NCBI RefSeq assembly: GCF_029626225.1
Contig: NZ_JARUBP010000001.1
Location: forward strand, 5,270,001 to 5,334,000
Source: Asanoa sp. WMMD1127
GTDB lineage: Bacteria > Actinomycetota > Actinomycetes > Mycobacteriales > Micromonosporaceae
DNA length: 64,000 nt
Reading direction: 5' to 3'
Each line of letters starts with the position of its first letter. Positions within the stretch are counted from its first letter, which is position 1. Under the pieces are notes generated by a model. It saw nothing but the letters and a program-made list of their open reading frames with translations. It did not search any database and was not told where the DNA came from. The position numbers and the translations under genes are program-made. Shown here piece by piece: positions 822 through 16,575 of this stretch.

Positions 822-1754
822 CTAGGGCGTGTCCTGGCGATCATCGGAGCCAGATCAACGCGGCGACGAGGAGCAGGCTTGACCGGTAGAGGGCGGCGCG
901 TTTGGCGAAGCGGGTGGCCAAGGCACGCCATTGTTTGAGCCGGTTGAAGCAGCGTTCCACGACGTTGCGTTGTCGGTAGACGTGCGGGTCGAACGTGGGT
1001 GGGCGTCCGCCGCGGCTGCCTTTGGCAGCCCGGCGGGCGACCTGGTCGGACCGTTCCGGGATGGTGTGTGGGATACCGCGCCGGCGTAGCCCGCTGCGGG
1101 TCGGGTCATGGGCGTAGGCCTTGTCCGCGATCAGCATCCGCGGCTTCTTACGCGCCCGACCGCGTCCAGACGTGTGGACCGCGATGGCGTCCAGCAGCGG
1201 GAACAACAGCGGATTGTCACCGGCTTGCCCGGCGGTCAGCAACACCGACAACGGCCGCCCGCGGCCGTCGACCGCGAGGTGGATTTTGGTGCTCAGGCCG
1301 CCCCGGGACCGGCCCAACGCCTCACCATCCGCCGCTGGTATGGCCACACCACCGGCAGATCCCCTTTTTTGCGTGCCCCGGCGGCGTGCTGGTGGGCACG
1401 CACAACACTGGAGTCCACGCTGATGATCCATTCGACTGGTTGGCCGTCGTCGTAGACCTGCGCCCGGGCCAGGATCAGTTCCCAGGTGCCGTCCGTGGTC
1501 CACCGCCGCAGCCGCTCGTGGCAGGTTTTCCACGGCCCGTAGCGTTCCGGCAAATCCCGCCAGGGCGCCCCGGTCCGCAACTTCCACAAGATCCCGTTGA
1601 TCACCTGACGGTGATCACGCCACCGCCCGGACCGACGACCAGGCTCGGGCAGCAACGGCCCGATCACCGCCCAAGCCTTGTCCGTCAACTCACCACGACC
1701 TACACCCGACACATCAACCAGAAACGATCAACTGATCGCCAGGACACGCCCTAG
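822..1754 (-). mobile_element. IS5-family (IS427-like) insertion sequence A
   Basis: The ends, 822-843 and 1733-1754, form a perfect 22-bp inverted repeat including CTAG at each outer edge; one CTAG is presumably the duplicated target. The element is about 0.93 kb and carries one transposase split over two frames on the minus strand. The orfB stop codon lies inside the left inverted repeat. The right-hand CTAG is also the TAG stop codon of the neighbouring gene, so the insertion is at a gene end and did not shorten that protein. Confidence 0.92.
841..1712 (-). CDS. IS5-family DDE transposase, orfA/orfB with -1 frameshift
   Basis: orfA runs from GTG at 1712 to 1293 (139 aa; DUF4096-type N-terminus, LTDKAWAVIGPLLP) and carries the first catalytic Asp in SVDSSVVRAHQHAAG. 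orfB, open from 1587 to 841, carries the second Asp (IADKAY) and the Glu (QRNVVERCFNRLKQW). The frames join by a -1 shift at a run of six A residues (minus strand, 1370-1365), in orfA read as AAA AAA GGG. This is a common arrangement for IS427-type transposases and suggests programmed frameshifting and an active element, not decay. Confidence 0.9.
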
Positions 1755-4700
1755 CGCCGGCCCGCGTACAGCTGGGTCACGTGCTCGGCGTTGAGCTCGT
1801 AGCCGTAGAGCCGGAAGTCGTCGATGAGCCCGTCGAACCGTGGGTCTCCCCAACTCGTCCCACCGAGGAAGTTGGCCGTGGTGCTGCCGCCCACCCCGAC
1901 GTTGCCGATGCCGATGGGGAAGTCGGAGCGGGTGGCGTGCAGCACGCCGTTGAAATAGATCTTCGCCGTCGAGCCGCTCATCGTGAACACCACGTGGGTC
2001 CACTGGTTGAGCGGCAGGTCCCTTCCTGCGCCGAGGAGGAGCCGTTCCTGCGCCGGCGCCCCCGCCGCCTTGAACGTGGCCCCGAACCCGGTGGTTCCGC
2101 TGTTCGTCGCCGACTGGAGCAGGAAGAACGTGTCGGTGCTGCTGCCGATCTGCAGCAACGGCACCCAGTTCGGCAGCGTGTCCGGGCGGGCCCAGAAGGA
2201 GACGGTGAACTGGTTGGTCAGCCCGGCCTGGATGTTGTTGGGCAGCCTGACCTCGTTGCCCGAGGTCGCGGCGCCGCCCGGCAGGTTGACCGCGCTGCCG
2301 ATCCGGCCGGCGGCCCAGGACGCGGTGGCCGGCAGCGTCGCCGCACCGAGAGACGTCCTGGTGCCCGAGTTCCCGGCGGCGGTGCCGGTGTTCTCGTCGA
2401 ACGTGTAGCGGACGGCGTTGCCCTCGTTGTACATCGCCGCCACGTCCGCGGCGGTCAGCGTGGACGTGTAGACCCGTACGTCGTCGATCAGACCGTCGAA
2501 CGCGGCGTCGGGGTATCCGTTGCGGCCCAGCCAGTTGTTGGCCGTCGGGCCGACGGCGGTCATGTCGACCGTCAGGTCGGCCCGGCTCGCGATCGCCACG
2601 CCGTTGAGGTACAGCGTGCCGATCGAGCCCTGGCGGGTGAAGGCCACGTGGTTCCACTGGTTGGCGACGACGTCCTGGGCCGGGCTGGCGTACACCCGCT
2701 CCTCGGGGCCGGTCTTGCCCTTGAAGGTCGCGGCCAGGCCGGTGCTCCCGGAAGCCTGCGTCTGCATCTGGATCTGGAAGTAGCTTCCGGCGGAGCCGAG
2801 GCCGTCTCCAATGTGGAACAGGCCGGTCCAGTTGTTCTTGGTGTCCGGGCGCACCCAGAACCCGGTGGTGAAGTTCGCCGCGTTCTGCAGCAGGTTGTCC
2901 GGCAGGTCCACCGCGTTGGCCGTGCTGCCGCCGGGCAGGTTGACCGCCTTGCCGATGATGCCGTTGGTGGACCAGCCCGTGGTGCCGGTCAGGACGGCCG
3001 CGCCCGGCCCACCGGCGCCACCGGTATTGGCGGCCGAGGTGCCCTGGCCCTCCTCGAACTCGTAGCGGACCGGGACACCGACGGGTGTCGGCGGCGGGTC
3101 GTCGCCCACGACCACCAGGTCGTCGATCATCAGGCCGGCGCCCGTTCCCGGACCCCTCAGCGTGAGGGTCTGCGTGGCCGTCGCCGCCGTGAAGGTGCCG
3201 ACGTACGTGCCGTAGGCGCCGGTCGAGGGCAGGCCGGTCGTGGCGGTGATGGTGGCGTTCAGGTTGCCGACCGTCAGGTTGGCCGTCGCCGCGCCGGCGC
3301 CCGCGGCGGACCGGCTGTCGCGGGCGTAGCGCAGTGACACCCGGTACGTGGTCCCCGGTGTCAGCGAGCTGAGTGTGCGTCTGACGGCGCCCGCGTTGCC
3401 CAGGCTGAGCTGGTAGCCGGTGAGCCCGAGGCCACCCTGGCCGGAAACCGTGCCGCGGACCAGCTGGACCTGGCTGTCGACCGTCCACGGCGACATCCGG
3501 GTGTTGCCGGCGGCGACGTCGACGGTCGCCGGCGGGTTGGCCGTGCGCCACTCCGCGGGCAGGCGCGGGTACTCGAACTGGTCGACGACCCGGGGGTTGA
3601 GCTGGCTCAGCTTGACCGCCGGGTCGACCTTCAGGATCTTCGCGATCGACGGCGTGCCGGCCGAGTCCCAGACGAACAGCATGTAGGAACCGGGAGGCGC
3701 GTAGGTGCCGTTGGCCGGCGCGTTGACGGTGACCGTGCTGCCGGACTGGCTGAACGCCAGGTCCTGGAAGTTCTGGTCGTTGTTGAAGCCGTGCGTCACC
3801 GAGCCGTTGCGGACCAGCGTGACCCGCGAGACGGTGCCGGACGTGGTGATGCCGAAGCTGCCGTTGTAGCCGATGGTGGCGGGCGCGGTGTTGATCACCG
3901 GGCGCGGGGCGGGCTGGTCGCCGTTGAACAGGTACGCGGGGGAGTAGTACTCGACGTCCGTGTAGTTGCGCGGGCCCGGGGTGCCGCCACCGCCCATCAT
4001 CACGCGACCGTCGGGCAGGAGCAGCGCGGCGGAATGATAGAGCCGGGCGTGCTCGTACGGCACGGCGACCTCGGTCCAGGTCCCGGAGTCCGGATCCCAG
4101 ATCTCGGCGTTCGTGACGTACCCACCGTTGCCGTTGTTCTCGCGGCCGCCACCGGTGACCAGCACGTCGCCGTCGGGCAGGACCGTCGAGGTCGCCCAGT
4201 GGCGCTGGTACTTCATCGGCCTGGTCGCCGTGACGACCGGGCTGGCCGTGCCGCCGGTGATGTCGACGGTGAAGCCGGCGCGCGCGCCGTCGGGGCCGCC
4301 GCCGTTGGCCCACCAGCCACCGCCGACCTGCAGGATCTTGCCGGGGCGGTACATGGTGGCCGTGGACGTCGCACCGACCGGGTTGCCGTTCGCGCCCTGG
4401 TTGGCGATGGCGGCGGGCAGCGTGCCGCGCAGCGTGACCTGTCCGGTGCCGCCGTTAGCCGCGGGGTTGAGCTCGTACATCTGGGTGCCGGTGATGTTGA
4501 ACAGGGTGCCGCTGCCGGGAGCCACGAACGCCCGGGGGTACCACCAGCGGTTCTCGTCCTGGCCGGCGTGGTCGGACCCGCCGTCGCCGTACGCCGCCGG
4601 GCTGCGGGCGCCGTCGAGCGTCTTCCAGCCCGACCCCGACTGCGGGGTGTAGATCTCCGGGGTGAGGACACCGGGTCCACCCGGGCCGCCGCGGAGGCTG

Positions 4701-5995
4701 CCGCCCTGGACCACGATGTCGCCGTTGGGCATGGTGGTGCCGGTCGGGTACCACCGGGGATAGTTCATAGGGGCCTTGTTCTGCAGCCCGTTGTTGGTGG
4801 AGTAGCTGGTGACGCCGATCGCGGCGTCGTTCGGGCTGTTGCCGCCGAGTCCGTCGTCGCCGCCGACCGTCATCGTCGAGTGGTCGTGCGGGTTCTGCAC
4901 CTGCATCGCGCAGAACAGGTCGGTGTAGGTGGTGTTCGGCAGTATCCCGGCCCGCAGGTTGGCGAGGTTACGCGGCTGGGCCGGATCCCAGATGTCCACC
5001 TCCATCTGGCCGCCCTGGGTGAGCGAGCTGTCGCCGGTCCAGTCGTACGGCGTGGCGTCGGTGCTCCAGCCTCCGACGCTGCCGAACGACTGCACCTTGC
5101 CGTCGGAGGTCAGCGACATGTTGATGGGCACCAGCGGCCACGGCGTGACACCACTCCACGCGCCGGCCCGGTCCTTCACCGGCGGCGAGCAGTCGGCGGG
5201 CAGCAGCCCCGCGGCGTACGCGAGACCGTTCTTCATCTGGGCGCGCATGTAGGACTCGGCGTAGGCGGTGCCCTCGTGGCCCATCGAGGTGTACCAGGAC
5301 CGGCCGGAGTCGATCTTCTGGCACCAGGTGACCGGGTGCGAGGTGCCCTGCCGGCCGCCGCCGTACGACGACTCGTCGGCCTCGATCAGGGTCCGGACGT
5401 TGGGCGCCGGGTTGACCACCCAGTCGTACCACTCGTCGCTGCGGGTGAGCGAGGCGGTCACGCCCTGGGTGAGCGGGTGGCCGGTGTCCCTGACGAACAC
5501 CCGGCCCGGCCGGACGCCGGGGTCCTCCGGATGTCCCTCGGAGGCGGCGCCGACCAGCCGGGCGTAGAACGGGTTGACGTCATGCTCGCTCTCGCCGACC
5601 GACCAACCGGTGTAGTGCAGGCCCATGAAGCCGCCGCCACCGCGGATGTAGGACTCGAGAGCGGTGCGCTGCGCCACGTTGAACAGCACTCCACCGGTCT
5701 GCGCGAAGACCACGGTGTCGCGGGCGGCGAGGTTGGCGGTGTTGAAGACCGCGGGGTCGTCGGTCTCCTGGATCTCCACCGGCTGGTTGTACTGCGTGCC
5801 GAGCTGGGCGGCCAGGTCGCGCACGGCCTGCCGGGCCTGCACGTTCGAGGCGTGGAAGTTGGGCTTGTAGAACAAGAGGACGTTGAGCCGGCCGTCGTCG
5901 ACGGCGGCGGCCCGGGCGGCGGCGGGAACCGCCAACCCGGCGACGACGAGCATCAGGGCGAGAAGGGAGTGGGCAGACCTGCGGGGCACTTTCAT
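1751..5995 (-). CDS. Secreted ThuA / copper-radical-oxidase-like propeller / double LamG protein
   Basis: A 1414-aa exported protein with signal peptide (residues 1-30, cut after AAARA). Domains: ThuA-like (about 37-265; GGGGFMGLHYTGW), a kelch propeller with C-terminal DUF1929 domain resembling galactose/glyoxal oxidases (about 280-790), a jelly-roll-like segment (about 805-970), and two LamG/concanavalin-like domains (about 978-1190 and 1198-1410). The radical-copper residues appear present: Cys362 (FCA), Tyr416 (RWYPT), Tyr653-His654 (LYHSA) and His735 (VTHGFN). ATG 5995 has GAGGGAGC upstream. It is the last gene of the sugar operon, 70 bp after the dehydrogenase. Inference: an extracellular carbohydrate-binding oxidase. 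The stop TAG overlaps the IS end. Confidence 0.88.
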   Translation of the reverse strand: MKVPRRSAHSLLALMLVVAGLAVPAAARAAAVDDGRLNVLLFYKPNFHASNVQARQAVRDLAAQLGTQYNQPVEIQETDDPAVFNTANLAARDTVVFAQTGGVLFNVAQRTALESYIRGGGGFMGLHYTGWSVGESEHDVNPFYARLVGAASEGHPEDPGVRPGRVFVRDTGHPLTQGVTASLTRSDEWYDWVVNPAPNVRTLIEADESSYGGGRQGTSHPVTWCQKIDSGRSWYTSMGHEGTAYAESYMRAQMKNGLAYAAGLLPADCSPPVKDRAGAWSGVTPWPLVPINMSLTSDGKVQSFGSVGGWSTDATPYDWTGDSSLTQGGQMEVDIWDPAQPRNLANLRAGILPNTTYTDLFCAMQVQNPHDHSTMTVGGDDGLGGNSPNDAAIGVTSYSTNNGLQNKAPMNYPRWYPTGTTMPNGDIVVQGGSLRGGPGGPGVLTPEIYTPQSGSGWKTLDGARSPAAYGDGGSDHAGQDENRWWYPRAFVAPGSGTLFNITGTQMYELNPAANGGTGQVTLRGTLPAAIANQGANGNPVGATSTATMYRPGKILQVGGGWWANGGGPDGARAGFTVDITGGTASPVVTATRPMKYQRHWATSTVLPDGDVLVTGGGRENNGNGGYVTNAEIWDPDSGTWTEVAVPYEHARLYHSAALLLPDGRVMMGGGGTPGPRNYTDVEYYSPAYLFNGDQPAPRPVINTAPATIGYNGSFGITTSGTVSRVTLVRNGSVTHGFNNDQNFQDLAFSQSGSTVTVNAPANGTYAPPGSYMLFVWDSAGTPSIAKILKVDPAVKLSQLNPRVVDQFEYPRLPAEWRTANPPATVDVAAGNTRMSPWTVDSQVQLVRGTVSGQGGLGLTGYQLSLGNAGAVRRTLSSLTPGTTYRVSLRYARDSRSAAGAGAATANLTVGNLNATITATTGLPSTGAYGTYVGTFTAATATQTLTLRGPGTGAGLMIDDLVVVGDDPPPTPVGVPVRYEFEEGQGTSAANTGGAGGPGAAVLTGTTGWSTNGIIGKAVNLPGGSTANAVDLPDNLLQNAANFTTGFWVRPDTKNNWTGLFHIGDGLGSAGSYFQIQMQTQASGSTGLAATFKGKTGPEERVYASPAQDVVANQWNHVAFTRQGSIGTLYLNGVAIASRADLTVDMTAVGPTANNWLGRNGYPDAAFDGLIDDVRVYTSTLTAADVAAMYNEGNAVRYTFDENTGTAAGNSGTRTSLGAATLPATASWAAGRIGSAVNLPGGAATSGNEVRLPNNIQAGLTNQFTVSFWARPDTLPNWVPLLQIGSSTDTFFLLQSATNSGTTGFGATFKAAGAPAQERLLLGAGRDLPLNQWTHVVFTMSGSTAKIYFNGVLHATRSDFPIGIGNVGVGGSTTANFLGGTSWGDPRFDGLIDDFRLYGYELNAEHVTQLYAGRR

Positions 5996-6025
5996 CAGAG
6001 CTCCCTCGAGGTACGGCTGACGTGA

Positions 6026-6043
6026 CAGTGAGGACGGTCACTG
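6026..6043. promoter_or_regulatory. Short inverted repeat in the gap before the ThuA-oxidase gene
   Basis: CAGTGA, six bases, TCACTG lies in the only sizeable gap (5996-6065) in the distal part of the operon. It could be an operator or an mRNA processing/attenuation hairpin that separates expression of the secreted protein from the transport genes. Only the symmetry is seen; no function is shown. Confidence 0.25.
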
Positions 6044-6065
6044 CCACTGATGGGCTGTCCCGAAA

Positions 6066-7553
6066 TCAACGCAGCTCGGCGATGACGGTCTTGAGCTCGG
6101 TGTAGTCGTCCAGGCCGAACGAGCCGAGCTCGCGGCCCCAACCCGACTGCTTGAAGCCGCCGCGGGGCAGGGTGACGTCGTCGGCGTGCCACGTGTTGAG
6201 CCACACCGTTCCGGCCCGCAGTCGGGCGCCGACCCGATGCGCCGTGCCGATGTCGGTGGACCAGACGCCCGCGGCAAGGCCGTACACCGTGTTGTTCGCG
6301 GCCGCGACGCCCTCGTCCTCGGTGTCGAACGGGATCGCGGTCACGACCGGGCCGAAGATCTCGTCGGTCTGCACCGCCATCCCCTCGTCGACGCCGGTGA
6401 TCAGGGTCGGCTGCACGAAGAAGCCGCGGTCACCGACCCGGTCGACGCTTCCGGCGGTCAGCACCGCGCCGTCGCGGACCGCACCGCGGATGTAGCCGAG
6501 CACCTTCTCGTGCTGCTCCTGCGAGACCAGGGGACCCATCTGCGAGGCGGGGTCGAACCCGTCGCCCACCTTGATCGCGGCGGCGGCCGCCGACACCCCC
6601 TCGACGACCTGGTCGAAGACGCCGCGCTGGACGTACAGGCGTGAGCCGTTGACGCAGCACTGCCCCTCGTTGAAGTAGCCGCCCAGCACCGCGCCGGCGA
6701 TGGCCGCCTCGATGTCCGCGTCGGCGAAGATGATGTTGGGCGCCTTGCCGCCGAGCTCGAGGGAGACCTTCTTCAAGTTGCCGGCGGCCGCCGCGGCGAT
6801 CTTCTTGCCGACCTCGGTGCTGCCGGTGAAGGCCACCTTGTCGACACCGTCGTGCGCGACCAGCGCGGCGCCGGTGTCGCCGAAGCCGGGCAGCACGTTG
6901 ACGACGCCGGCCGGCACGCCGGCCTCGAGCAGCAGCTCACCGAGGCGCAGCGCGGTCAGCGGCGTCTGCTCGGCCGGCTTGAGGATGACCGTGTTGCCCG
7001 CGGTGATCGCTGGGATGATCTTGAAGCAGGCCATCAGCAGGGGGAAGTTCCACGGCACGATGCCGGCCACGACGCCGACCGGCTCGCGGCGCGTGTAGGC
7101 GTGGAACTCGCGACCCGGCACGGACATCGGGATGGTGGTGCCCTCCATCTTGGTCGCCCAGCCGGCGAAGTACCGGAAGAGCTCGGCGGAGGTCGCGATG
7201 TCGCCGTCCCGGGCCGCCTCGACGCGTTTGCCGTTGTCGAGGGCCTCGAGCTGGGCGAGCTCGTCGGCGTGGGCCTCGATCAGGTCGCCGATGCGCCAGA
7301 GCAGGTGCGAGCGGTCGCGCGGGGTCATCCTCGACCAGGGCGAGCGGGACTCGAACGCCGCGCGCGCCGCCCCGACCGCACGGTCCACGTCGACGTTCGA
7401 CGCGTACGCGACCTGGACCAGTTCCTCCTCGGTCGACGGGTTGACGGTGGCGAAGGTCCGGCCGTCCTTCGCGTCCACCCACTCACCGTCGATGAGCAGC
7501 TGCTTCGGCGAGGACAGGAACGAGCGGACGGCGGGCAGGAGCGCGGAGTTCAT
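6066..7553 (-). CDS. NAD(P)-dependent aldehyde dehydrogenase (betaine-aldehyde-dehydrogenase-like)
   Basis: A 495-aa member of the aldehyde dehydrogenase superfamily, full length. Catalytic features: PWNFP (167-171), FTGSTEVG (242-249), general base Glu266 in LELGGK, nucleophile Cys300 in NEGQCC. The start ATG has GGAAGG 6 bases upstream. It lies 18 bp after the permease gene and belongs to the kdu/transporter operon. The cluster suggests it oxidises an aldehyde intermediate of sugar-acid breakdown (a semialdehyde is plausible), but the substrate cannot be read from the sequence. Confidence 0.9.
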   Translation of the reverse strand: MNSALLPAVRSFLSSPKQLLIDGEWVDAKDGRTFATVNPSTEEELVQVAYASNVDVDRAVGAARAAFESRSPWSRMTPRDRSHLLWRIGDLIEAHADELAQLEALDNGKRVEAARDGDIATSAELFRYFAGWATKMEGTTIPMSVPGREFHAYTRREPVGVVAGIVPWNFPLLMACFKIIPAITAGNTVILKPAEQTPLTALRLGELLLEAGVPAGVVNVLPGFGDTGAALVAHDGVDKVAFTGSTEVGKKIAAAAAGNLKKVSLELGGKAPNIIFADADIEAAIAGAVLGGYFNEGQCCVNGSRLYVQRGVFDQVVEGVSAAAAAIKVGDGFDPASQMGPLVSQEQHEKVLGYIRGAVRDGAVLTAGSVDRVGDRGFFVQPTLITGVDEGMAVQTDEIFGPVVTAIPFDTEDEGVAAANNTVYGLAAGVWSTDIGTAHRVGARLRAGTVWLNTWHADDVTLPRGGFKQSGWGRELGSFGLDDYTELKTVIAELR

Positions 7554-7571
7554 GGTGGCCTTCCGTAGGAG

Positions 7572-8537
7572 TTATTTGACGGTCGAGACTTTCGAGCGGT
7601 CGAGGGTGAGCGCGACCGCGACGACGATGATCGCGCCGTACAGGATCTGCTCGTACGCGGAGGGCACGCCGACGATCGGCAGGCCCACCCGCAGCAGCGT
7701 CACGACGAGCGCGCCGGCGAAGCTGCGCCACACGCTGCCGTGGCCACCGGTGATGGCGGTGCCGCCGACCACGATCGCCGCTACCGCGGGCAGCAGCAGG
7801 TTGTCGGCCATCGTGGGGCCGCCGCTGAACTGCCGCGACACCAGCATGACCGCGGCGAGCCCGGCGCAGGCGCCCGAGACGCAGAACGCACCGATCTTGA
7901 CCAGGTCGACCGGTGTGCCGGCGAGCCGCGCGGCCGACTCGGAGTAGCCGGTGGCCGAGATCCAGCTCCGCAGCGGGGTCACCTTGAGGACCACGGCGAT
8001 CAGGGCGACGACGATGATCGCGACAGCGGCCGACATCGGCACGTAGCCGCCGAGATAGAGGTCGAGCCAGTGGATCGTCGAGTCGTCCACGACCCGCACC
8101 GTGCCGGCGCCGGAGACCACCAGGGCGACCGCGGACAGGATCGCCATCCCGCCCAGGGTGACGATGAACGACGGAATCCGCAGCAGCACGTGCGCGACCC
8201 CCTGCACCGCGCCGATCGCCGCGGCGACCAGGATGACGGCCGGTGTGGCCAGGCCACCGAGATCCGGCAGCCACAGGGCCAGGAAGACGGTCGACAGCGA
8301 GGCCAACGCCGCGATGGACAGGTCGATGCCACCGCAGAGCACGACCAGCGTCGCACCCGCGGCCAGCACGATGAGCGGAGCGGCGGTCCGCGCCACCGCG
8401 ATCAGGCTCCGCTGCGTCAGGAAGTCCGGGTCGGCGACGGTGAGGGCGGCGACCAGCGCCGCCAGGGCGATGAGCGGCATGAGCCCGGTGAGCCGGTGGA
8501 CCCGGACGGTGGTGGGCATGGCGACGTGAGTGCTCAC
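7572..8537 (-). CDS. Sugar ABC transporter permease (CUT2/RbsC type)
   Basis: A 321-aa membrane protein of the BPD_transp_2 family, with hydrophobic segments throughout and the conserved cytoplasmic stretch [21 protein letters not shown]. The start is taken as the GTG at 8537, which forms a GTGA overlap with the stop of the ATPase gene; an ATG six codons later is possible. It is the second of two different permeases in this transporter, an arrangement also seen in rhamnose (RhaPQ) and AI-2 (LsrCD) importers, implying a heterodimeric channel. Confidence 0.88.
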
Positions 8538-10051
8538 ACCATCTCCTTCACGAGGTCCAGCGGGCTCGGCTTGCCGCCGTGGGGGCAGGCGACCTCGGTG
8601 GCGACCCGGCCGTCGCTCATCACCAGGATGCGGTCGGCCATGCCGATGGCCTCCTCGAGGCTGTCGCCCAGCAGCACGGTGGCCACGCCGGTCGCGGCGA
8701 GCTCGCGCATCAGCCGGTAGACCTCCGACCGGGCGCCGATGTCCAGGCCGCGCGTCGGGTGGTCGAGCAGGAGCAGCCGGACGTCGCCGGCCACCAGCCA
8801 GCGCGCCAGGATCACCTTCTGCTGGTTGCCGCCGGACAGCCGCTGGATCGCGGTGTCGCGGCCCGGCGTGCGGATGGAGAGCCGCCGAATCCACGCGTCG
8901 ACGAGGGTGGCCTGCTTCTTGGGCGCCACGAAGGGTCCCGCGCAGCGGGCCTGCTGTTTGGCCAGGGTCATGTTCTCGGCCACCGACATCGGGCCGACCA
9001 TGCCCTCGATCTTGCGCTCCGCCGGCACGTAGCCGATGCCGGCGGCGCAGGCGGCCCGGGTGCTGGGCAGGTCGATCTTCCTGCCGTCCATCCGGATCTC
9101 GCCGGCGGTGGTCGGCTCGGCGCCGAACAGGGCGCGGCAGACGTCCTCCCGGCCGGAACCGTGCACGCCGACGATGGCCACGATCTCGCCGGGCGCCACG
9201 TCGAAGCTGACGTCCTGGAACGTCGCTCCGGACAGGCCGCGTACGGACAGCCGGGGCTCTTGGGAGTCGACCGTGGCGGCCGCGTTCTCGTGGTAGTGGT
9301 CGTCGGATCCGCTGGACCCGATCATCATCCGGTGCAGCTCGCGGGGGACCGCGCCGGCCGTGGCGACCTCGCCGACCGACCGGCCGCCGCGCAGCACGGA
9401 CACCCGGTCGCAGACGTCCAGCACCTCGTCGAGGCGGTGTGAGACGAAGATGACCGTGGCGAACTCGCGCAGCCGGCGGATCTGCGCGAACAGCGCGTCG
9501 ATCTCCTTGGACTCGAGGACCGACGTCGGCTCGTCCAGGATGACGACCGGCGGATGCTGGCTGCGCTCCTCGATGCGCAGCACCTTCGCGATCTCGACCA
9601 TCTGCCGGTCGGCGAAGGACAGCGAGTCGGTGCGCGCGAGCGGGTCGATGGGTGAGCCGATCTTGTCGAGCTGCTCCTGGGCCAGGCGGCGCATGACGTC
9701 CCAGCGGTAGAAACCCCGGCGGACGGCCGGCCCCTCGCTGCCGAGCACGATGTTCTCCGCGGCGGTCAGGTTGGGCACCAGGGACTGTTCCTGGAAGACC
9801 ATCCCGATGCCGTGGTCGGCGGCGTCGACGACACTGCGCAACCGGACCGGCTCGCCCCGGACGTGGATCGTGCCGGCGTCCGGGACGACGAGGCCGACCA
9901 GCGCTTTGAGCAAAGTGGACTTGCCCGCGCCGTTCTCCCCGGCCAGACCGAGGACCTCGTTCTGCCGGACCACCAGGTCGACCCCGTCGAGGGCTCTCAC
10001 CCCTGGGTAGTGCTTGACGAGGCCGCGTACCTCCAAGGCCGGCACGCTCAT
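8534..10051 (-). CDS. Sugar ABC transporter ATP-binding protein, two fused ATPase domains
   Basis: A 505-aa CUT2-type ATPase. The N-terminal domain has Walker [10 protein letters not shown] (38-46) and Walker [11 protein letters not shown], but a degenerate signature (SFADRQMVE). The C-terminal domain has a degenerate Walker A (GVHGSGRED), an intact LSGGNQQKV signature, and [13 protein letters not shown], where His replaces the usual catalytic Glu. Complementary degeneracy is normal in this family. It starts at ATG 10051 inside the previous permease's stop (ATGA). Confidence 0.92.
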
Positions 10052-11049
10052 TTGACCACCTGGTTCCGTCGACGTTGCGGGATGACGGCGGCGGCGACCG
10101 CGGCCACCACGATGAGGCCCTCGACCCCGCCCTGCCAGTACGGGCTGACCCCGACCTGGACGAGACCGTTGGTGAGGACCATGACGAGCAGGACGCCGAC
10201 GGCGGAGTGCAGGATGCCGCCCCGACCCCCGGTGAGCAGCGTGCCGCCGACGACGGCGGCGGTGATGGCCGAGAAGTCGTATCCGTCGCCGGCCTGGACG
10301 AGGCCGGCGCCGAGCTGACTGGTCACCATCACGCCGCCGAGCCCGTAGAACGCGCCGGCGAGGGCGAAGACCGCGACCTTGTACGGCTTCACCTTGACGC
10401 CCGAGAGCAGGAGCACCTCCTCGGCGCCGCCGATGGCGAAGGCGTAGCGCCCCAGCCGGGTGTAGCGCTGGACGAGCCAGCCGACCAGGACACACCCGGC
10501 GGCGATCCAGGTGAGGTACGAGAATCCGAGGAACCGCTCGATCGCCAGGCCCTTGACCACGGTGTCGGAGACGTTGGGCTGCACGCCGGCGAACATGAGG
10601 GTCGCGACGCCGAGACCGATGGCCGAGACACCCAACGTGGCCATGAACGAGGGCACCTTCAGCAGCACCAGGGCCAGCCCGCTCAGGCAGCCGAACGCGC
10701 AGCCCAGCAGGACGGCGGCCGCGACGCCGAGCAACCCGAAGTCGTTGTCGTTGCGATTGTTGGCCACCAGCAGCGACACGGTCAGGGCGCAGGCGCCCAT
10801 CACGCCGGCGGCCGACAGGTCGATCGACCCCATCATCAGCACGAACGTGATGCCGCACGTGACGACGGCGAGCACGGCGGCCGCGTCCACGATGTTCCGG
10901 ACGTTGTCGGCGCTGCGGAACTGCGGGCTGAGGGCCGCGAAGATCAGGAAGATGACGATCAGTGCGACCGGTGGACCAGCATCCCGGAACGACGCGCCTC
11001 GCCGGGACTGGCGGCGAGGCGCGTTGACGACCTCGGATGTGATGGTCAC
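10048..11049 (-). CDS. Sugar ABC transporter permease (CUT2/RbsC type)
   Basis: A 333-aa multi-spanning permease of the BPD_transp_2 family; it is only distantly similar to the second permease of the operon. The GTG start at 11049 overlaps the binding-protein stop as GTGA. The first about 27 residues are cytoplasmic and basic (PRRQSRRG), then the transmembrane bundle follows, with GSIDLSAAGVMG and the family loop SGVKVKPYKVAVFALAGAFYG. Confidence 0.9.
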   Translation of the reverse strand: MTITSEVVNAPRRQSRRGASFRDAGPPVALIVIFLIFAALSPQFRSADNVRNIVDAAAVLAVVTCGITFVLMMGSIDLSAAGVMGACALTVSLLVANNRNDNDFGLLGVAAAVLLGCAFGCLSGLALVLLKVPSFMATLGVSAIGLGVATLMFAGVQPNVSDTVVKGLAIERFLGFSYLTWIAAGCVLVGWLVQRYTRLGRYAFAIGGAEEVLLLSGVKVKPYKVAVFALAGAFYGLGGVMVTSQLGAGLVQAGDGYDFSAITAAVVGGTLLTGGRGGILHSAVGVLLVMVLTNGLVQVGVSPYWQGGVEGLIVVAAVAAAVIPQRRRNQVVK

Positions 11050-12137
11050 GTCAGAGGCCCTGCCACACGCTTGAAGACGTTGCCGCACTCGAAGTCGGCC
11101 GGGTTCGTCTTCGGCTGGGTGAACTCGCCGGCGTTGTCCTTGGTGATGAGGAACTGCTCGGCGAAGAAGGCCCGGTTGTCCTTGGCGATGTCCGCCACCT
11201 TGAGCTTGCCGGTGGCGACGCAGAAGCCGATCGCCAGACCGACGCCGCCCTGCCACGAGCCGTCGCTGGAGACGGTGGCGGTCATCGTGCCGTTCTGCAC
11301 GGCGGTGACGGCGTCCGGGACGGCGTCGATGCCGACGACCGCGACCTTGCCGGCCCGACCCGCCTGCTGCAGCGCCTCCAGAGCGCCGAGAGCCATGTCG
11401 TCGTTGGCGGCCCAGATGCCCTTGACGTGGTCGCCGTGCTTGGCCAGCAGGGTCTTGGTGACGGTGAGCGCCTCGGCGCGCGAGAAGTTGGCCGCCTGCT
11501 GGTCCAGCAGCGTGACGCCGGTGTTCTTCTTGAGCGACGCCTGCAGCCCGGCGAACCGGTCCTTGGCGGCCGCGGTGTCGAGCACACCCTGCAGCGCGAT
11601 GATGCCGCCCGAGCCGCCGATCGCGGTGGCGAGCGCGTCACCGATCTGCTGGCCCGACTCGACACCGTTGTAGGTGATGTGGCTGAGCCAGGTCTGGTAG
11701 TCGGCCGGGTTCAGGTCGGCCGGCTTGTTCCACTGCGTGACCAGGTACGCGCCGGCCTGGTCGGCGCCCTTGACAATCGGCGCGGTGTCCGAGTCGCCGT
11801 TGGGGAGCACGTTCATGACCAGGCACTTGGTGTCGCCGGCGAGGATCTGGCTGATCTGCTCCTGCTGCTTGGTGGAGTCACCGTCGTAGGTGAGTCGCTC
11901 CTGGGTCAGGCCGACCGACTTGGCGAAGGCGTCGCCACCCGCGAGCCACGAGGCCTCGTACGGGTTGGACTCGTTGCGGACCTGGCCCACCAGCCGGACC
12001 TTGGACGCCTCGCAGGCGGCCTCGCCGGCGGCAGCGGTGTCGTTGCCTCCGCCGGCCTGCTCGCTGCAGCCGGCGAGGACGGCGGCGGCCAACGACAGGC
12101 TCATGATGGCGGCGGCGGAACGAGGGGTGACATTCAT
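11046..12137 (-). CDS. Sugar-binding lipoprotein of the ABC importer
   Basis: 363 aa with a lipoprotein signal (lipobox LAGC, Cys23) and a periplasmic-binding-protein type 1 fold (Peripla_BP_4), for example IWAANDDMALGALEALQQAG and VVGIDAVPDAVTAVQNGTM. It captures the substrate outside the membrane for the two-permease importer. The ATG at 12137 is preceded by GAGGATCGACC. A 40-bp gap separates it from kduD. The ligand is not evident; the kdu neighbours suggest a uronate or uronate-containing oligosaccharide. Confidence 0.92.
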   Translation of the reverse strand: MNVTPRSAAAIMSLSLAAAVLAGCSEQAGGGNDTAAAGEAACEASKVRLVGQVRNESNPYEASWLAGGDAFAKSVGLTQERLTYDGDSTKQQEQISQILAGDTKCLVMNVLPNGDSDTAPIVKGADQAGAYLVTQWNKPADLNPADYQTWLSHITYNGVESGQQIGDALATAIGGSGGIIALQGVLDTAAAKDRFAGLQASLKKNTGVTLLDQQAANFSRAEALTVTKTLLAKHGDHVKGIWAANDDMALGALEALQQAGRAGKVAVVGIDAVPDAVTAVQNGTMTATVSSDGSWQGGVGLAIGFCVATGKLKVADIAKDNRAFFAEQFLITKDNAGEFTQPKTNPADFECGNVFKRVAGPLT

Positions 12138-12177
12138 GGTCGATCCTCAATTCTTCGTAGGGGAGGGGAATGCTGGG

Positions 12178-12933
12178 TCAGCGGGCCATCCACCCTCCGT
12201 CGACGACCAGGACGTGGCCGTTGACGTAGTCGGCGGCGGCGGAGCTCAGGAAGACGGCCGCGCCGGCGACGTCGGCGGCGTCTCCCCAGCGACCGGCCGG
12301 GATGCGCGCGAGTATGGCCCGGGACCGGTCGGGGTCGGCCCGCAGCGCGGTGGTGTTGTCGGTGGCCATGTAGCCGGGCGCGATGGCGTTGACCTGCATG
12401 CCGCACGGACCCCACTCGTTGGCCAGGGCCTTGGTGACGCCGGCGACACCGTGCTTGCTGGCGGTGTAGGCCGCGACGCGGATGCCGCCCTGGAACGAGA
12501 GCAGGCTCGCGACGTTGACGATCTTGCCGTGCCCGCGCTCGGCCATCGGGCGGCCGAACTCCTGGCAGAGGAAGAACAAGCCGTTCAGGTTGACGTCGAC
12601 CACGCGGTGCCAGGCCGCCCGGTTCACGTTGACCGCGTCCTCCCGGTCGATGACGCCGGCGTTGTTGACGAGGATGTCCACCTGACGGCGGCCGGTCACC
12701 TCGGCGGCGACCCGCTCGATGGCGTCGTGGTCACTGACGTCGAGGTCGACGATCTCGACGTCGCCGCCGAGTTCGGCCACCTGGTCGCCGGTCTCCGACT
12801 GGCTGCCGGACCGGCCGACCAGGACCAGATCGGCGCCGGCCCGGGCGAGCCCCAGCGCGATGGCCTGACCGAGGCCGCGGCCCGCGCCGGTCACGACGGC
12901 GCGGCGGCCGTGCAGGTCGAACGACGTGGTCAC
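12178..12933 (-). CDS. kduD: 2-dehydro-3-deoxy-D-gluconate / 2-deoxy-D-gluconate 3-dehydrogenase (KduD-like SDR)
   Basis: A 251-aa classical short-chain dehydrogenase. Cofactor motif TGAGRGLG (15-22), NNAG (90-93), catalytic Ser143, Tyr156 and Lys160 (YTASK). Length and sequence style fit KduD, which reduces 2,5-diketo-3-deoxygluconate to KDG in pectin/uronate breakdown. The GTG at 12933 overlaps the stop of the kduI-like gene (GTGA), so the two are translationally coupled, as expected for consecutive pathway steps. Confidence 0.85.
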   Translation of the reverse strand: MTTSFDLHGRRAVVTGAGRGLGQAIALGLARAGADLVLVGRSGSQSETGDQVAELGGDVEIVDLDVSDHDAIERVAAEVTGRRQVDILVNNAGVIDREDAVNVNRAAWHRVVDVNLNGLFFLCQEFGRPMAERGHGKIVNVASLLSFQGGIRVAAYTASKHGVAGVTKALANEWGPCGMQVNAIAPGYMATDNTTALRADPDRSRAILARIPAGRWGDAADVAGAAVFLSSAAADYVNGHVLVVDGGWMAR

Positions 12934-13748
12934 AGGTCCTCCAGCGCCACGGGGGTCAGGTCGGTGTACTCGTTGTTCTCGCCACCCATCGCCCAGATGA
13001 AGGCGTACGACCCGGTGCCGACGCCCGAGTGGATCGACCAGGGCGGCGAGATGACCGCCTCGCGGTTGCGCACGACCAGGTGGCGGGCGGCGCCGGGCTG
13101 GCCCATCAGGTGGAAGATCCGCTCCTTCTCGTCGAGGTCGACGTAGAGGTAGACCTCGGTGCGCCGGTCGTGCAGGTGCGGCGGGAGCGTGTTCCACACC
13201 GAGCCGTCGGCGATGACGGTGACGCCGAACTGCAGCACCGCGGTCTGCGGCTGCTGACCCCACGCGTAGCGGTAGAGGCTGCGTTCGTTGGCGCCCTGCG
13301 GCGTGCCGAGCCTGACCGGCTCGATCGAGGCGTGGCTCAGCAGGGTGGTGGGGTACGGCGCGTGCGCCGGAGCGGAGACGAAGTAGAACGCGGCGTCCGG
13401 ACCGGCGAAGGTGACCTCGTTGCCGCGGCCGACGAACAGTCCGTCGAGGTGGCGCAGCTCGAACTTCTCGTTGTTGACGAGCACGTGGCCCGGCTGACCG
13501 ACGTTGACGATGCCGAGCTCGCGGCGGGCCAGGTGGGAGGGAGCGCCGAGCACGTCCCAGGCGGGAAGCTCGAGCTGATCGGTGCCCGGAACCGCCGCGC
13601 CGACGACCAGCCGGTCGTCGTGGGTGTACACCCCCCGCACCTCGCCGGTGCGGAACAGCTGCTCCACGAGGAAGTTCTTGCGCAGGTCCGCATTCGTCGC
13701 CGTTTCCACCTCGGACGGCGATGCGGAGTACCTAACTTCGATCAACAC
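12930..13748 (-). CDS. kduI: 5-keto-4-deoxyuronate isomerase (KduI)
   Basis: A 272-aa KduI-family cupin-fold enzyme, close to the usual 278 aa. Its candidate zinc ligands His191, His193, Glu198 and His240 have the same spacing as the known E. coli ligands (196, 198, 203, 245). The reaction converts 4-deoxy-L-threo-5-hexulose uronate to 2,5-diketo-3-deoxygluconate. It is the first gene of the operon; the promoter region faces the divergent IclR gene and holds a GTTCAG-N4-GTGAAC operator. Confidence 0.92.
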   Translation of the reverse strand: MLIEVRYSASPSEVETATNADLRKNFLVEQLFRTGEVRGVYTHDDRLVVGAAVPGTDQLELPAWDVLGAPSHLARRELGIVNVGQPGHVLVNNEKFELRHLDGLFVGRGNEVTFAGPDAAFYFVSAPAHAPYPTTLLSHASIEPVRLGTPQGANERSLYRYAWGQQPQTAVLQFGVTVIADGSVWNTLPPHLHDRRTEVYLYVDLDEKERIFHLMGQPGAARHLVVRNREAVISPPWSIHSGVGTGSYAFIWAMGGENNEYTDLTPVALEDL

Positions 13749-13761
13749 TCGCTCCTCGTTT

Positions 13762-13786
13762 GTGAACCGCGTTCAGCTACGTGAAC
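13762..13786. promoter_or_regulatory. Candidate IclR operator upstream of kduI
   Basis: GTTCAGCTACGTGAAC (13771-13786) is a 6-4-6 inverted repeat with one mismatch. A further GTGAAC at 13762-13767 overlaps it in a second possible pairing (GTGAAC-N3-GTTCAG). It lies 14-38 bp in front of the kduI start. The same palindrome recurs perfectly at 15010-15025 before the tautomerase gene, and another GTGAAC is at 13848-13853, which supports a shared binding site. The divergent IclR protein is the natural candidate. Confidence 0.65.
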
Positions 13787-13847
13787 TGAGCGCGACGATA
13801 CCTATGGCGCCGATCACAGGTCAAGGGGTTGAAGTCGGTCCCTCCAT

Positions 13848-13853
13848 GTGAAC
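13848..13853 (+). promoter_or_regulatory. Possible IclR half-site (GTGAAC) near the regulator's own promoter
   Basis: A lone GTGAAC 80 bp before the IclR start codon, in the divergent intergenic region with the complete kduI operator. It would allow autoregulation. As a single hexamer it is weak evidence alone. Confidence 0.3.
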
Positions 13854-13933
13854 CGTGGTGTAGTTTGGGACGACCCCGCCGTGGTCGTGGCGGGTGACGG
13901 CAAGGCCGCGCCATGGTTTACGAGGAGGTCCGC

Positions 13934-14725
13934 GTGGACAAGGACAGGACGGCCAACGGCAGCTCCGCCGCCTCGCAGGTCAAGTCGGCCGCACGCGTCC
14001 TCGACGTCCTGGACGACATCGCCGCCAACGGCCCCGGGACCCAGCTGCAGCTGGCCACGCGCCTCGGGATCCCGAAGAGCAGCCTGCACGCGCTCCTGCG
14101 CACCATGTGCGCCCGCGGCTGGCTGGACACCGACCAGACCGGCAGCATCTACCGGCTGGGCGTGCACACCCTGACGGTCAGCTCCGCCTACCTCGACGGC
14201 GACCCGGTGCTGTCGCGCGCCAGCTCGGTGATGGACGAGATCGCGGCGGCCACCGAGGAGACGGTCCACCTCGGCCGTCTGGAGGGTGCGGAGATCATCT
14301 ACACCGCCAAGCGTGAGTCCAAGCACCCGCTTCGGATGTACTCGGCCGTCGGTCGCCGCCTACCCGCCTACATGACCGCGCTCGGCCGGGCGATGCTCGC
14401 CGAGCAGCCCGAAGACGTCCGGGAGGCGCTGGTTCCCCACCAGATCAAGCCGGTCACCACCCAGACGATCACCGACCGGGACGCGCTGCTGGCGATCATC
14501 GACAAAGCCGGCCAGCTCGGCTACGCCGAGGAGAGCGAGGAGTCCTGCCTGGGCGTGCGCTGCTTCGGGGTCGCGCTGCCCTTCTCCCACCGCCCGGTCG
14601 ACGCGCTGAGCGTCGCGGTCCCGATCAGCCGCCTCGACCAGGCTCGGGAAGACTTCATCATCGAGATGCTGCTGAGTGTGAAGGCCCGCCTGTCCGCGAT
14701 GCGTGACAACCGGTTGGTGCGCTGA
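13934..14725 (+). CDS. IclR-family transcriptional regulator
   Basis: About 263 aa: an N-terminal winged helix (SAARVLDVLDDIA, then IPKSSLHALLRTM recognition helix) and a C-terminal IclR ligand domain (GRRLPAYMTALGRAMLAE; GVRCFGVALPF). I prefer the GTG at 13934, which has GAGGAGGT five bases upstream; the in-frame ATG at 13913 lacks one. Divergent from kduI, it probably controls the sugar-acid operon in response to an intermediate. KdgR-type IclR regulators of pectin genes provide the precedent. Confidence 0.9.
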   Translation: MDKDRTANGSSAASQVKSAARVLDVLDDIAANGPGTQLQLATRLGIPKSSLHALLRTMCARGWLDTDQTGSIYRLGVHTLTVSSAYLDGDPVLSRASSVMDEIAAATEETVHLGRLEGAEIIYTAKRESKHPLRMYSAVGRRLPAYMTALGRAMLAEQPEDVREALVPHQIKPVTTQTITDRDALLAIIDKAGQLGYAEESEESCLGVRCFGVALPFSHRPVDALSVAVPISRLDQAREDFIIEMLLSVKARLSAMRDNRLVR

Positions 14726-14746
14726 CCCGTCGAGGTCGCGCGGTGG

Positions 14747-14971
14747 TCAGCTCTTGTCGAGCGCCGCGAGCACGCCGGCGCGGCTCGGGTCCTCGCTGGC
14801 CAGCACGCCTCCGTTGGCCACGATGTCCGGGGTGATCTCGTTGAAGACCATGCGGACGTCCTGCGGACGGGCGCCGAGGATCTCGACCGCGTGCTCGGTC
14901 ACGGCGCGAGCGAAGGCCCGGCGCTGCTCGACGGACCGGCCCGCGAGCAACTCCACGGTGATGTTTGGCAT
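14747..14971 (-). CDS. 4-oxalocrotonate-tautomerase-like small enzyme
   Basis: A 74-aa protein starting Met-Pro (MPNITVELLAGRSVEQRR), so Pro2 would be the N-terminal catalytic proline after Met removal. It has the typical tautomerase strand-helix layout and a shortened C-terminus. The IclR-type palindrome 39 bp upstream of its start suggests membership in the same regulon. A role in keto-enol tautomerisation of a sugar-acid intermediate is inferred only. Confidence 0.8.
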   Translation of the reverse strand: MPNITVELLAGRSVEQRRAFARAVTEHAVEILGARPQDVRMVFNEITPDIVANGGVLASEDPSRAGVLAALDKS

Positions 14972-15009: not shown

Positions 15010-15025
15010 GTTCACCAACGTGAAC
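15010..15025. promoter_or_regulatory. Perfect IclR-type palindrome upstream of the tautomerase gene
   Basis: GTTCACCAACGTGAAC is a perfect 6-4-6 inverted repeat matching the kduI operator. It lies before the tautomerase gene (start 14971); a further GTTCAC is at 15074-15079. GH76 ends beyond it at 15121, so only the tautomerase is a direct target here. Confidence 0.6.
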
Positions 15026-15120: not shown

Positions 15121-16575
15121 TCAGGGCGCGGCGTTGAGCAGGTCGACGGCGCTGTGCTGGCGGGCCCCGTCCGTGGCGTCGACCGGGCCGGTCCAGCGCA
15201 GGCCGTAGAGGTCGAGCGGCGTGCGGTCCCGGGCGTACGCGGCGTCGGCCTGCCGTCGCAGGTAGGCGTCGTAGGGCCGGCCGGCCAGCAGCGCGTTGAG
15301 CCGGGCGAGGCCGCGGACGTGTGCGCCTTTGAAGGAGGTGCCGTCGGCGCCGCAGTTGCCGGATTCGCACGGGTCGCGCAGGATTCCACCGGAGTGCAGC
15401 TGTGCGGTGGTGGTCGCGGCGTCGGCGAGCTGGCGGGCCCGGTCGAGCAGGCTGCTGTCGCCGGTCGCCCGGTGGAGCTCGGCGAGGCCGGCGATGAGCA
15501 CGCCCTGGTTGTAGGTCCAGACCGCGGAGCCGTTGTTGCGGCAGGTGGTGAGACTGATGCCGTCGTTCACCAGGTTGGAGCTGTTGATCATGCCCGTGTT
15601 CTGGAACCAGGTCCACTCCTGCCGGGCCCGCTGAAGATGTCGGGTGTCGCCGGGCAGCCGGTTGTGCAGGGCGGCGTTGACCTGGAGGTAGAGGCTGTTG
15701 GCGATGGCCGCCTTGTAGCCGCGGGCGGTGCTCCACCAGATCCCGCCGCCGCAGGTGTTGTCCCAATAGGCGGCCATGTGCTCCGCCGCGGCCCGCGCGG
15801 TGTCGAGGTAGCGGGTCTCGCCGGTGAGGTCGTACGCGCCGATCCAGGCCATGGCCCACCAGCCGGTGTCGTCGAGGTACTCGTTGCGGAACTGGCCCTG
15901 GCCCCGGTTGACGTTGCGGTCGTAGGTGTTCGCGATCGCGTACCGGTAGCTGCCCATGCCGGAGACGCGGATGTTGTCGATGACGGCGGTGAGCGCGTTG
16001 GCCGAGTTCCACCAGCCGGTCGTGTCGAACAGCCCGGTGCCGAGGTTGTAGTGCATCATCAGGCCGGTCGCCGCGGCGGTCCGGCGGGTGCCGGCATTCC
16101 AGGTGCTGCGGGCCCAGGCGGTGCAGGCGACTTCGGGGCGGTCGCCGGCCTTGCCGCACGCGCGCACCGCGCCGACGCCGAGGCTGACCCAGTTGTCGAC
16201 GTTGAACATCGGGCTGCGCGCGGTGCGGCTGCCGGACGGGGTCGTGGCGGTGCCGAGCCGCCCGTCGGCGGACCAGGTGCGGCCGGCGTCGAAGGACCGC
16301 TCCAACCAGGTCTGGTCACCGGGGTTCCCGTTGCCGACGACGGCCCACGCCATCGCGTCGGCGTCGTTGACGTGCAGGGCGATCTGCCGACCGTAGATCG
16401 CGGCGGTGACCGGGACGCGGTCCGAAGTGGACAAAGAGGCGTCGCGGCCGTCGCAGAACCGGTTGCAGATCAGGGCGAGCGGCCCGGGGGAGGCGAAGGC
16501 GACGGCCGGGACGCTGACGGCGGCGAGCGAGGCCGCGACCGTCGCGATGGCGAGGGCGGTGGGCGTACGGGTCAT
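15121..16575 (-). CDS. Secreted GH76 family glycoside hydrolase (alpha-1,6-mannanase-like)
   Basis: 484 aa with signal peptide (cut near AFA-SP, residue 29). The alpha/alpha-barrel family is recognised by [14 protein letters not shown]; Asp235-Asp236 match the catalytic pair of GH76 endo-alpha-1,6-mannanases. Other helix repeats are typical ([28 protein letters not shown] region and [13 protein letters not shown]-like). The ATG at 16575 has GGAGGG five bases upstream. A hairpin separates it from the upstream giant gene. Probably attacks mannan outside the cell, feeding the sugar locus or acting on yeast/fungal walls. Confidence 0.9.

Follow-up and report, generated by a model that had tools for sequence, protein, structure and literature searches.

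The Kdu/KDG pathway (KDG, 2-keto-3-deoxygluconate) of pectin and glycosaminoglycan degraders includes the isomerase KduI, the substrate of which is 4-deoxy-5-keto-uronate. ThuA proteins are known from thuAB, linked to the use of 3-keto disaccharides as cited in the available part of PMC4765114, and the literature that we searched on gene clusters of AA5 oxidases covers fungi only. In the accessible portion of its main text, a 2025 survey of KduI/KduD clusters (PMC12838403) contains neither 'oxidase' nor 'aldehyde dehydrogenase'. Here we describe an operon in a 64,000-nucleotide stretch of the Asanoa sp. WMMD1127 genome (the window) in which kduI and kduD are joined to genes for a sugar importer, an aldehyde dehydrogenase (ALDH) and a ThuA protein fused to an AA5-like copper-radical oxidase. 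The same gene order occurs in all 22 named loci recovered by scanning genome contigs for KduI. Taken together, the gene content, conservation, linkage, catalytic residues and common promoter motif, all read from sequence, point to a Kdu/KDG pathway in a co-regulated form coupled to an oxidase, a reading to which we give a probability of about 0.42.

All gene positions from the first description of the operon were re-checked and are in place. The operon occupies 1751-13748 on the minus strand of the 7.97-Mb host genome and runs from KduI through KduD, a four-gene CUT2 importer and the ALDH to the ThuA-AA5-LamG protein. Its parts and the elements next to it are as follows.

1751..5995, minus: protein of 1414 aa with ThuA, AA5-like copper-radical oxidase and two LamG domains (PF06283, PF09118 and PF13385, over cut-off)
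6066..7553, minus: ALDH with a GQCC motif (PF00171, 573 bits)
7572..8537, minus: CUT2 permease 2 (PF02653, 107 bits)
8534..10051, minus: CUT2 double-domain ATPase (PF00005, two stretches; AraG is the top NCBIfam match, below cut-off)
10048..11049, minus: CUT2 permease 1 (PF02653, 101 bits)
11046..12137, minus: CUT2-type sugar-binding lipoprotein (PF13407)
12178..12933, minus: KduD, 2-dehydro-3-deoxy-D-gluconate 5-dehydrogenase (TIGR01832, 350.7 bits, over the cut-off of 338.85)
12930..13748, minus: KduI, 5-dehydro-4-deoxy-D-glucuronate isomerase (NF002091, 352 bits, over the cut-off of 250)
13771..13786, no strand: operator-like palindrome before KduI, 1 mismatch to GTTCAC-N4-GTGAAC
13795..13824, minus: sigma-70-like promoter match before KduI (1 found, mean of 0.2 in shuffles; a consensus match only)
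13913..14725, plus: IclR-family regulator, KdgR-like (PF01614, PF09339)
14747..14971, minus: 4-oxalocrotonate-type tautomerase with Pro after Met (PF01361, 48 bits, cut-off 22)
15010..15025, no strand: exact palindrome GTTCAC-N4-GTGAAC, 39 bp before the tautomerase

The assignment of KduI is strengthened by its similarity to PDB 1ywk (E value, 7.6e-74). A second KduI/IolB-family match in the genome (C1:4943907) was considered as another KduI and is regarded as IolB; a search with the KduI equivalog returned the operon copy only. A Peripla_BP_4 protein, a double ATPase and BPD_transp_2 permeases, all recognized by Pfam, identify the transporter as an ATP-binding cassette sugar importer of the CUT2 type, for which monosaccharides are the usual cargo. 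The binding lipoprotein is nearest to PDB chain 2rjo (234 bits; runner-up, 96), and no paper on the ligand of 2rjo was found in the literature searched. Among the NCBIfam matches listed for the ALDH, none reaches its cut-off, the best being StyD (583 versus 850 bits). The top NCBIfam match of the IclR protein is KdgR, at 140 bits and below the cut-off of 275.

NCBIfam, Pfam and the conserved order thus support the operon as the sequence-only reading had drawn it, with KduI and KduD, a two-permease importer, an ALDH and a ThuA/oxidase protein. Two details need correction. The central junctions had all been given as 4-bp overlaps, which is right for four of them (KduI-KduD, binding protein-permease, permease-ATPase and ATPase-permease), whereas there are gaps of 40 nt between KduD and the binding protein, 18 nt between permease and ALDH and 70 nt between ALDH and the ThuA gene. 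The tautomerase gene, placed earlier within the span of the operon, is present but sits past the IclR gene, itself divergent from KduI, and has its own promoter motif.

The hosts of the 22 named loci belong to Asanoa, Catellatospora, Actinoplanes/Paractinoplanes, Virgisporangium, Dactylosporangium, Herbidospora and Nocardioides and include Kribbella catacumbae (labels beginning with L and G below denote loci and genomes; G156 and G126 are called Nocardioides through the genus label g44, common with G287, Nocardioides currus). In each locus we found the order IclR, KduI, KduD, binding protein, permease, ATPase, permease, ALDH and ThuA protein, which argues that the operon is more than a chance assembly. 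In 19 of the 22, all or part of the AA5 domain can be seen; for L018 it is read from L091 of the same genome (counted once), and L019 and L020 end before the domain. The tautomerase adjoins the cluster in 18, that of L022 being taken from the first locus survey because later gene calling missed it. The nearest operon in a tree of KduI and ALDH is that of Asanoa siamensis. Examination of a class sample of 296 genomes gave KduI over its cut-off in 21. A ThuA-AA5 query (E value, 1e-40; three candidates scored per genome) matched 43 of the 296, 35 of them only partly and mostly at the ThuA end; the full-length fusion was found in 8 of the 296, every one within ~12 kb of KduI. Altogether, 29 distinct genomes, that of the window included and G287 counted once with L018, carry both the cluster and the fusion's ThuA end. 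The neighbourhood search of KduI with ThuA that the sequence-only reading had suggested therefore finds the two linked in 22 of 22 named loci, and its view of the oxidase and ALDH as parts of one system is upheld. In four genomes (f21/g42; L100-L103) the oxidase gene lies across the IclR gene, with linkage kept. In a phylum sample of 396 genomes (E value, 1e-90; two candidates scored per genome) the query found its own genome only, and a plasmid search gave 7 records, none over 80% of the query.

KduI loci of another type served for comparison. In the ten that were readable (L087-L090, L093-L097 and L099, of which L093 and L097 are short contigs of 8.6 and 11.2 kb), there is no oxidase, no ALDH and no copper gene pair of the kind described below; L104 and L105, the KduI loci of G270 and G077, had no genes called and were left out. 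Three of the ten share gene c19, which is GH88 by Pfam in L087, and a GH88 search matches all three places. A tautomerase 61-65% identical to that of the window is also present in three other-type KduI-KduD-IclR clusters (L090, L093 and L094), and the link of tautomerase to KduI is hence broader than that of oxidase to KduI.

The 1414-aa protein resembles galactose oxidases in the PDB, and its signal-like N terminus suggests that it is secreted. Cys362, Tyr416, Tyr653, His654 and His735 align with the cofactor and copper positions of these enzymes, where we take the first two to form the Cys-Tyr cofactor pair and the remaining Tyr, His and His to be copper ligands. In an alignment of 27 rows, these residues are invariant wherever a row covers them (Cys362 in 25/25, Tyr416 in 22/22, and Tyr653, His654 and His735 in 20/20 each), so the predicted protein has the full residue set of an AA5 copper-radical oxidase. 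The match to the GlxA equivalog NF052501 is 126.6 bits, below the cut-off of 800. The ThuA domain scores 157.5 bits against PF06283 (cut-off, 33.4), and its motif residues His, His, Asp-Glu and His are present in 27 of 27 rows. Elsewhere in the same genome (L113, C1:4165000-4177000), a cluster of large proteins includes two separate ThuA proteins 38-40% identical to that of the window.

A shared promoter element ties parts of the locus together. With at most one mismatch, the palindrome GTTCAC-N4-GTGAAC occurs twice in the 64 kb, in the KduI and tautomerase promoters, against a chance mean of 0.10 and no instance of two matches in 100 shuffles. In the window and in all 18 named loci in which the tautomerase gene is seen, the palindrome lies upstream of that gene with 0-1 mismatch, whereas just one of 91 unrelated upstream regions of 200 bp has it, and this lone control match is probably the tautomerase site of L014 viewed from its divergent neighbour. 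At the tautomerase site, G287 differs by 1 mismatch and G156 by 3. Before the oxidase gene, it is present with 0-1 mismatch in L003, L019, L020, L098, L100 and L102. A narrower motif, RGTTCACR, is found upstream of the tautomerase in 16/18, upstream of ThuA in 7/22 and upstream of unrelated genes in 4/89; matches to the palindrome occur inside coding sequences too. The IclR protein of the window may bind the palindrome.

How might an oxidase and an ALDH serve KduI? We infer the first four reactions outlined here, their substrate and the roles of ThuA and the tautomerase. The secreted oxidase would convert the C6 hydroxyl (primary alcohol) of a sugar, with O2, to a 6-aldehyde; in many relatives a CopC-CopD fusion and a DUF1775 protein, whose genes share the promoter region of the tautomerase, may supply its copper. 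The aldehyde would then lose its C4 substituent by beta-elimination, spontaneously or aided by the fused ThuA domain, to give 4-deoxy-hex-4-eno-dialdose, a step that would supply the deoxygenation otherwise coming from a lyase or dehydratase. Following uptake of the monosaccharide by the CUT2 importer, the ALDH would oxidize the C6 aldehyde to the acid, which is 4-deoxy-5-keto-uronate, and the tautomerase may quicken the enol-keto steps. KduI and KduD would form KDG, and a KDG kinase and a 2-keto-3-deoxy-6-phosphogluconate (KDPG) aldolase, which are encoded in the operon of some relatives and probably elsewhere in the genome of the window, would produce pyruvate and glyceraldehyde 3-phosphate. 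The promoters would be under control of the IclR/KdgR-like protein. As a C6 aldehyde, elimination and an ALDH would together yield the KduI substrate, this scheme would explain why oxidase and ALDH are tied to KduI. A chemical precedent exists in galactose 6-aldehydes, which lose water to become alpha,beta-unsaturated 6-aldehydes (PMC3388858, in the part available). More tentatively, the AA5-ThuA protein may be an 'oxidative lyase', in which oxidation at C6 of a neutral sugar leads to breakage of the C4 bond by beta-elimination, so that neutral glycans or sugars would yield 4-deoxy unsaturated dialdoses for conversion by the ALDH to the KduI substrate and would enter the Kdu pathway with no polysaccharide lyase; we regard this as a doubtful proposal.

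On the question of where the deoxy sugar originates, five families (GH88/105, PL1, PL22, Hepar_II_III and PL8) were sought in 24 genomes, comprising 20 with the cluster (8 of the class sample, including that of the window, and 12 of the 22 named) and four others. Among the 20 cluster genomes, GH88/105 was found in 5, PL1 in 12, Hepar_II_III in 7 (one below cut-off) and PL8 in 6; PL22 was absent from all 20 and from all 24. The genome of the window has 8 matches to PL1, in ~29 kb at C1:3929862-3958706 and far from the operon, and none to GH88/105, PL22, Hepar_II_III or PL8. All five families are missing from four Nocardioides genomes with the cluster (G287, G156, G126 and G305), and PL2, 3, 4, 6, 7, 9, 11 and others were outside this search. 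No lyase or unsaturated-uronide hydrolase is part of the conserved gene set of the 22 named loci, in agreement with the earlier claim of an operon free of a lyase and an unsaturated glucuronyl hydrolase. It is possible, if on balance doubtful, that the locus serves a classical pectin or uronide route, in which KduI would receive unsaturated uronides made by lyases (PL1 or others) encoded away from the operon, the oxidase would work on side-chain or terminal sugars of the same polymer and the ALDH would clear the aldehyde so formed. The PL1 matches in the genome of the window and in over half of the cluster genomes leave ordinary pectin products as a conceivable source, the PL8 and Hepar_II_III matches fit such a route, and KduI, KduD and the kinase and aldolase of the relatives are an ordinary set. 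However, the conserved cluster lacks lyase, GH88/105 and PL22 genes, PL22 is wholly absent and GH88/105 infrequent in the genomes searched, the four Nocardioides have no source among the five families and the importer is of a type usual for monosaccharides. For the oxidase-coupled pathway, the empty Nocardioides genomes and the few families in the genome of the window suggest that deoxy sugar must be supplied in some other way.

The sequence-only reading had also seen in the lack of a KDG kinase and aldolase a hint of a different downstream route, and this did not survive comparison. Between the ALDH and ThuA-AA5 genes, 10 of the 22 named loci encode a KDPG aldolase and a PfkB kinase of the KDG type, and the lack of these enzymes was therefore rejected as evidence of a new end route. 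Homologous clusters do, then, include these two enzymes, as that reading had named among the findings that would speak against it; the others, a lyase and an unrelated ThuA gene, they do not include. The L008 aldolase scores 240 bits against TIGR01182 (cut-off, 156), and the L008 kinase is a PfkB protein that reaches no NCBIfam cut-off. The aldolase and kinase genes overlap by 4 bp in 13 of 13 loci (12 genomes), intergenic gap lengths in relatives depending on the start codons chosen here. In the KduI and ALDH tree, the window groups with A. siamensis and A. hainanensis, both without kinase and aldolase, and with A. ishikariensis, which has them. Loss is therefore the simplest reading, and the absence of these genes from the operon of the window looks like a lineage loss. 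The genome of the window has two matches over cut-off to the KDPG aldolase family PF01081, both outside the operon. One, at C1:4.86 Mb, adjoins a PfkB kinase gene; this aldolase scores 154.9 against the TIGR01182 cut-off of 156.05 and the kinase 166 against the cut-off of 400 for KDG_KDGal_kin. A kinase of the L008 type (E value, 1e-30) was found in 5 of 16 genomes searched and not in that of the window. As far as gene content can tell, the route to the KDG end is ordinary in relatives and probably so in this genome. Two genomes without an in-operon kinase, G299 and G302, have a related aldolase and kinase pair elsewhere (L118 and L119, respectively), by a second IclR gene. The products of these IclR genes are 45-46% identical to that of the window, and a one-mismatch palindrome lies near the L118 pair.

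Kinase and aldolase bear on two further alternatives. In one, the oxidase would form a hexodialdose, the ALDH would convert it to galacturonate or glucuronate and KduI would act as a hexuronate isomerase. Escherichia coli KduI does facilitate conversion of galacturonate and glucuronate (PMC3578941, in the part available); however, this route still requires a dehydratase for the formation of KDG, the conserved set contains none (remaining genes of these genomes were not searched for one), and 10 of the 22 named loci encode the KDG-type kinase and KDPG aldolase. We therefore consider it improbable. In the other, the ALDH would act on the deoxy-keto-uronate or on a later semialdehyde, as in oxidative breakdown of 4-deoxy-L-erythro-5-hexoseulose uronate (DEHU), and the oxidase would serve for peroxide or for work on wall glycans. 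An oxidative DEHU route ending in alpha-ketoglutaric semialdehyde dehydrogenase exists, according to the accessible part of PMC8563752, and G289 retains the ALDH without the oxidase. Set against these points, the ALDH scores 366.5 bits against the alpha-ketoglutaric semialdehyde dehydrogenase model NF042993 (cut-off, 770), the kinase and aldolase of the relatives make an oxidative branch unnecessary, and the palindrome precedes the oxidase gene in six loci. Such a route appears very improbable.

A link of the oxidase-coupled pathway to copper is suggested by the relatives. Close to the tautomerase, 13 of the 22 named loci encode a CopC-CopD fusion and 12 a DUF1775 protein (genes grouped by BLAST, with Pfam applied to L008 only), while nearly all other genes flanking the tautomerase occur in just one or two loci. 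Two genomes, G287 and G156, have their DUF1775, CopCD and tautomerase genes on the opposite side, past the oxidase gene. Copper is bound by DUF1775 (YcnI), and CopD is regarded as a copper importer, as stated in the available part of PMC8424229.

Several observations weigh against the oxidase-coupled reading. The elimination described in PMC3388858 is, in the part available, chemical, takes place at high temperature and alkaline pH and is independent of galactose oxidase. The PL1 matches of the genome of the window (8) and of 12 of the 20 cluster genomes may offer another supply of substrate, and the search for lyases was of five families. Substrate residues of galactose oxidase, which we take to be Trp290 and Arg330, are replaced in the protein of the window by Leu434 and Gly (the Gly from one pairwise alignment), so galactose need not be the substrate. 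The structure predicted for the ThuA-AA5 protein from 13 close rows has a mean pLDDT of 46.5, too poor for use, and the ALDH matches no named equivalog. One genome with the cluster (G289, the thirtieth) retains KduI, KduD, the importer and the ALDH but no oxidase. No copper gene adjoins the tautomerase of the window, its neighbour there being GH76 (CopC-CopD was not sought elsewhere in the genome). The 70-nt gap upstream of the oxidase gene in the window lacks the palindrome, a site with 0-1 mismatch before the oxidase occurs in just 3 of the 22 named loci, and the KduI site has 0-1 mismatch in 9 of the 22, the others having 2-3 or not being measured. Finally, the loci are akin to each other, and the counts are not independent. 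In G289, the surroundings of the cluster (L106-L108) include genes for GH92, GH20 and another sugar importer.

The following elements flank the locus in the window.

841-1712, minus, and 20461-21224, plus: two related transposase genes, presumably of the IS5 type (the second is Pfam DDE_Tnp_1)
15121-16575: GH76 protein, between the cluster and the second insertion sequence (IS)
16650-20126: PA14 / F5-F8 / DUF1080 (3-keto-disaccharide hydrolase-domain) protein, between the cluster and the second IS

The inverted IS pair brackets the operon and the GH76 and DUF1080 genes, and its 841-1712 copy abuts the stop codon of the oxidase gene, which is uncut. Truncation of the oxidase by this IS was ruled out, since the C terminus is the same in L120 and L121. 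A recent composite transposon is not supported either, the IS copies being inverted and their 137-nt arms 71% alike. The GH76 and PA14/F5F8/DUF1080 genes were rejected as parts of the cluster, as neither is beside it in the 22 named loci; a ThuA/F5F8 protein in L023 and an F5F8 stretch in L005 (36-40%) were taken as unrelated. Within the F5/F8 domains of the 16650-20126 gene, two 300-nt direct repeats (17256-17990) are 75% alike.

All parts of the operon are of known families, and their combination was not found in the literature searched. A fusion of ThuA with galactose oxidase was likewise not found in that literature, from which subscription papers were mostly absent, and no match listed there paired 'galactose oxidase' with kduI or kduD. 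This fixed gene set in soil actinobacteria hints at an undescribed oxidative feed of sugars into a sugar-acid breakdown pathway. Linkage, the copper genes of many relatives and the common promoter motif tie a bacterial AA5-type oxidase to a named catabolic pathway, which makes its substrate and product directly testable. If the elimination is enzymatic, it would represent a lyase-like cutting of neutral glycans and a reaction for the ThuA domain.

In comparison with described systems, the relatives' loci share the pair of CopC-CopD fusion and DUF1775 with copper genes of the ycnKJI type; in the relatives, however, the pair adjoins a tautomerase and a sugar-acid operon and has a common palindrome, and it is not beside the cluster of the window. 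The PF06283 domain and the His, His, Asp-Glu, His motif are common to thuAB and the ThuA family, whereas the ThuA of the window is probably extracellular and fused to an oxidase, and its conserved set is without a ThuB-type gene. With galactose oxidase and GlxA the oxidase shares the Cys-Tyr, Tyr, His and His positions, and it differs from them in an extra N-terminal ThuA domain, C-terminal LamG domains and the places of Trp290 and Arg330. From the Kdu/KDG pathway of pectin and glycosaminoglycan degraders the cluster retains KduI and KduD and, in 10 of 22 relatives, the kinase and aldolase; in contrast to the classical version, that of the window dispenses with lyase, GH88/105 and PL22 and adds an ALDH, a CUT2 importer and a predicted secreted copper-radical oxidase.

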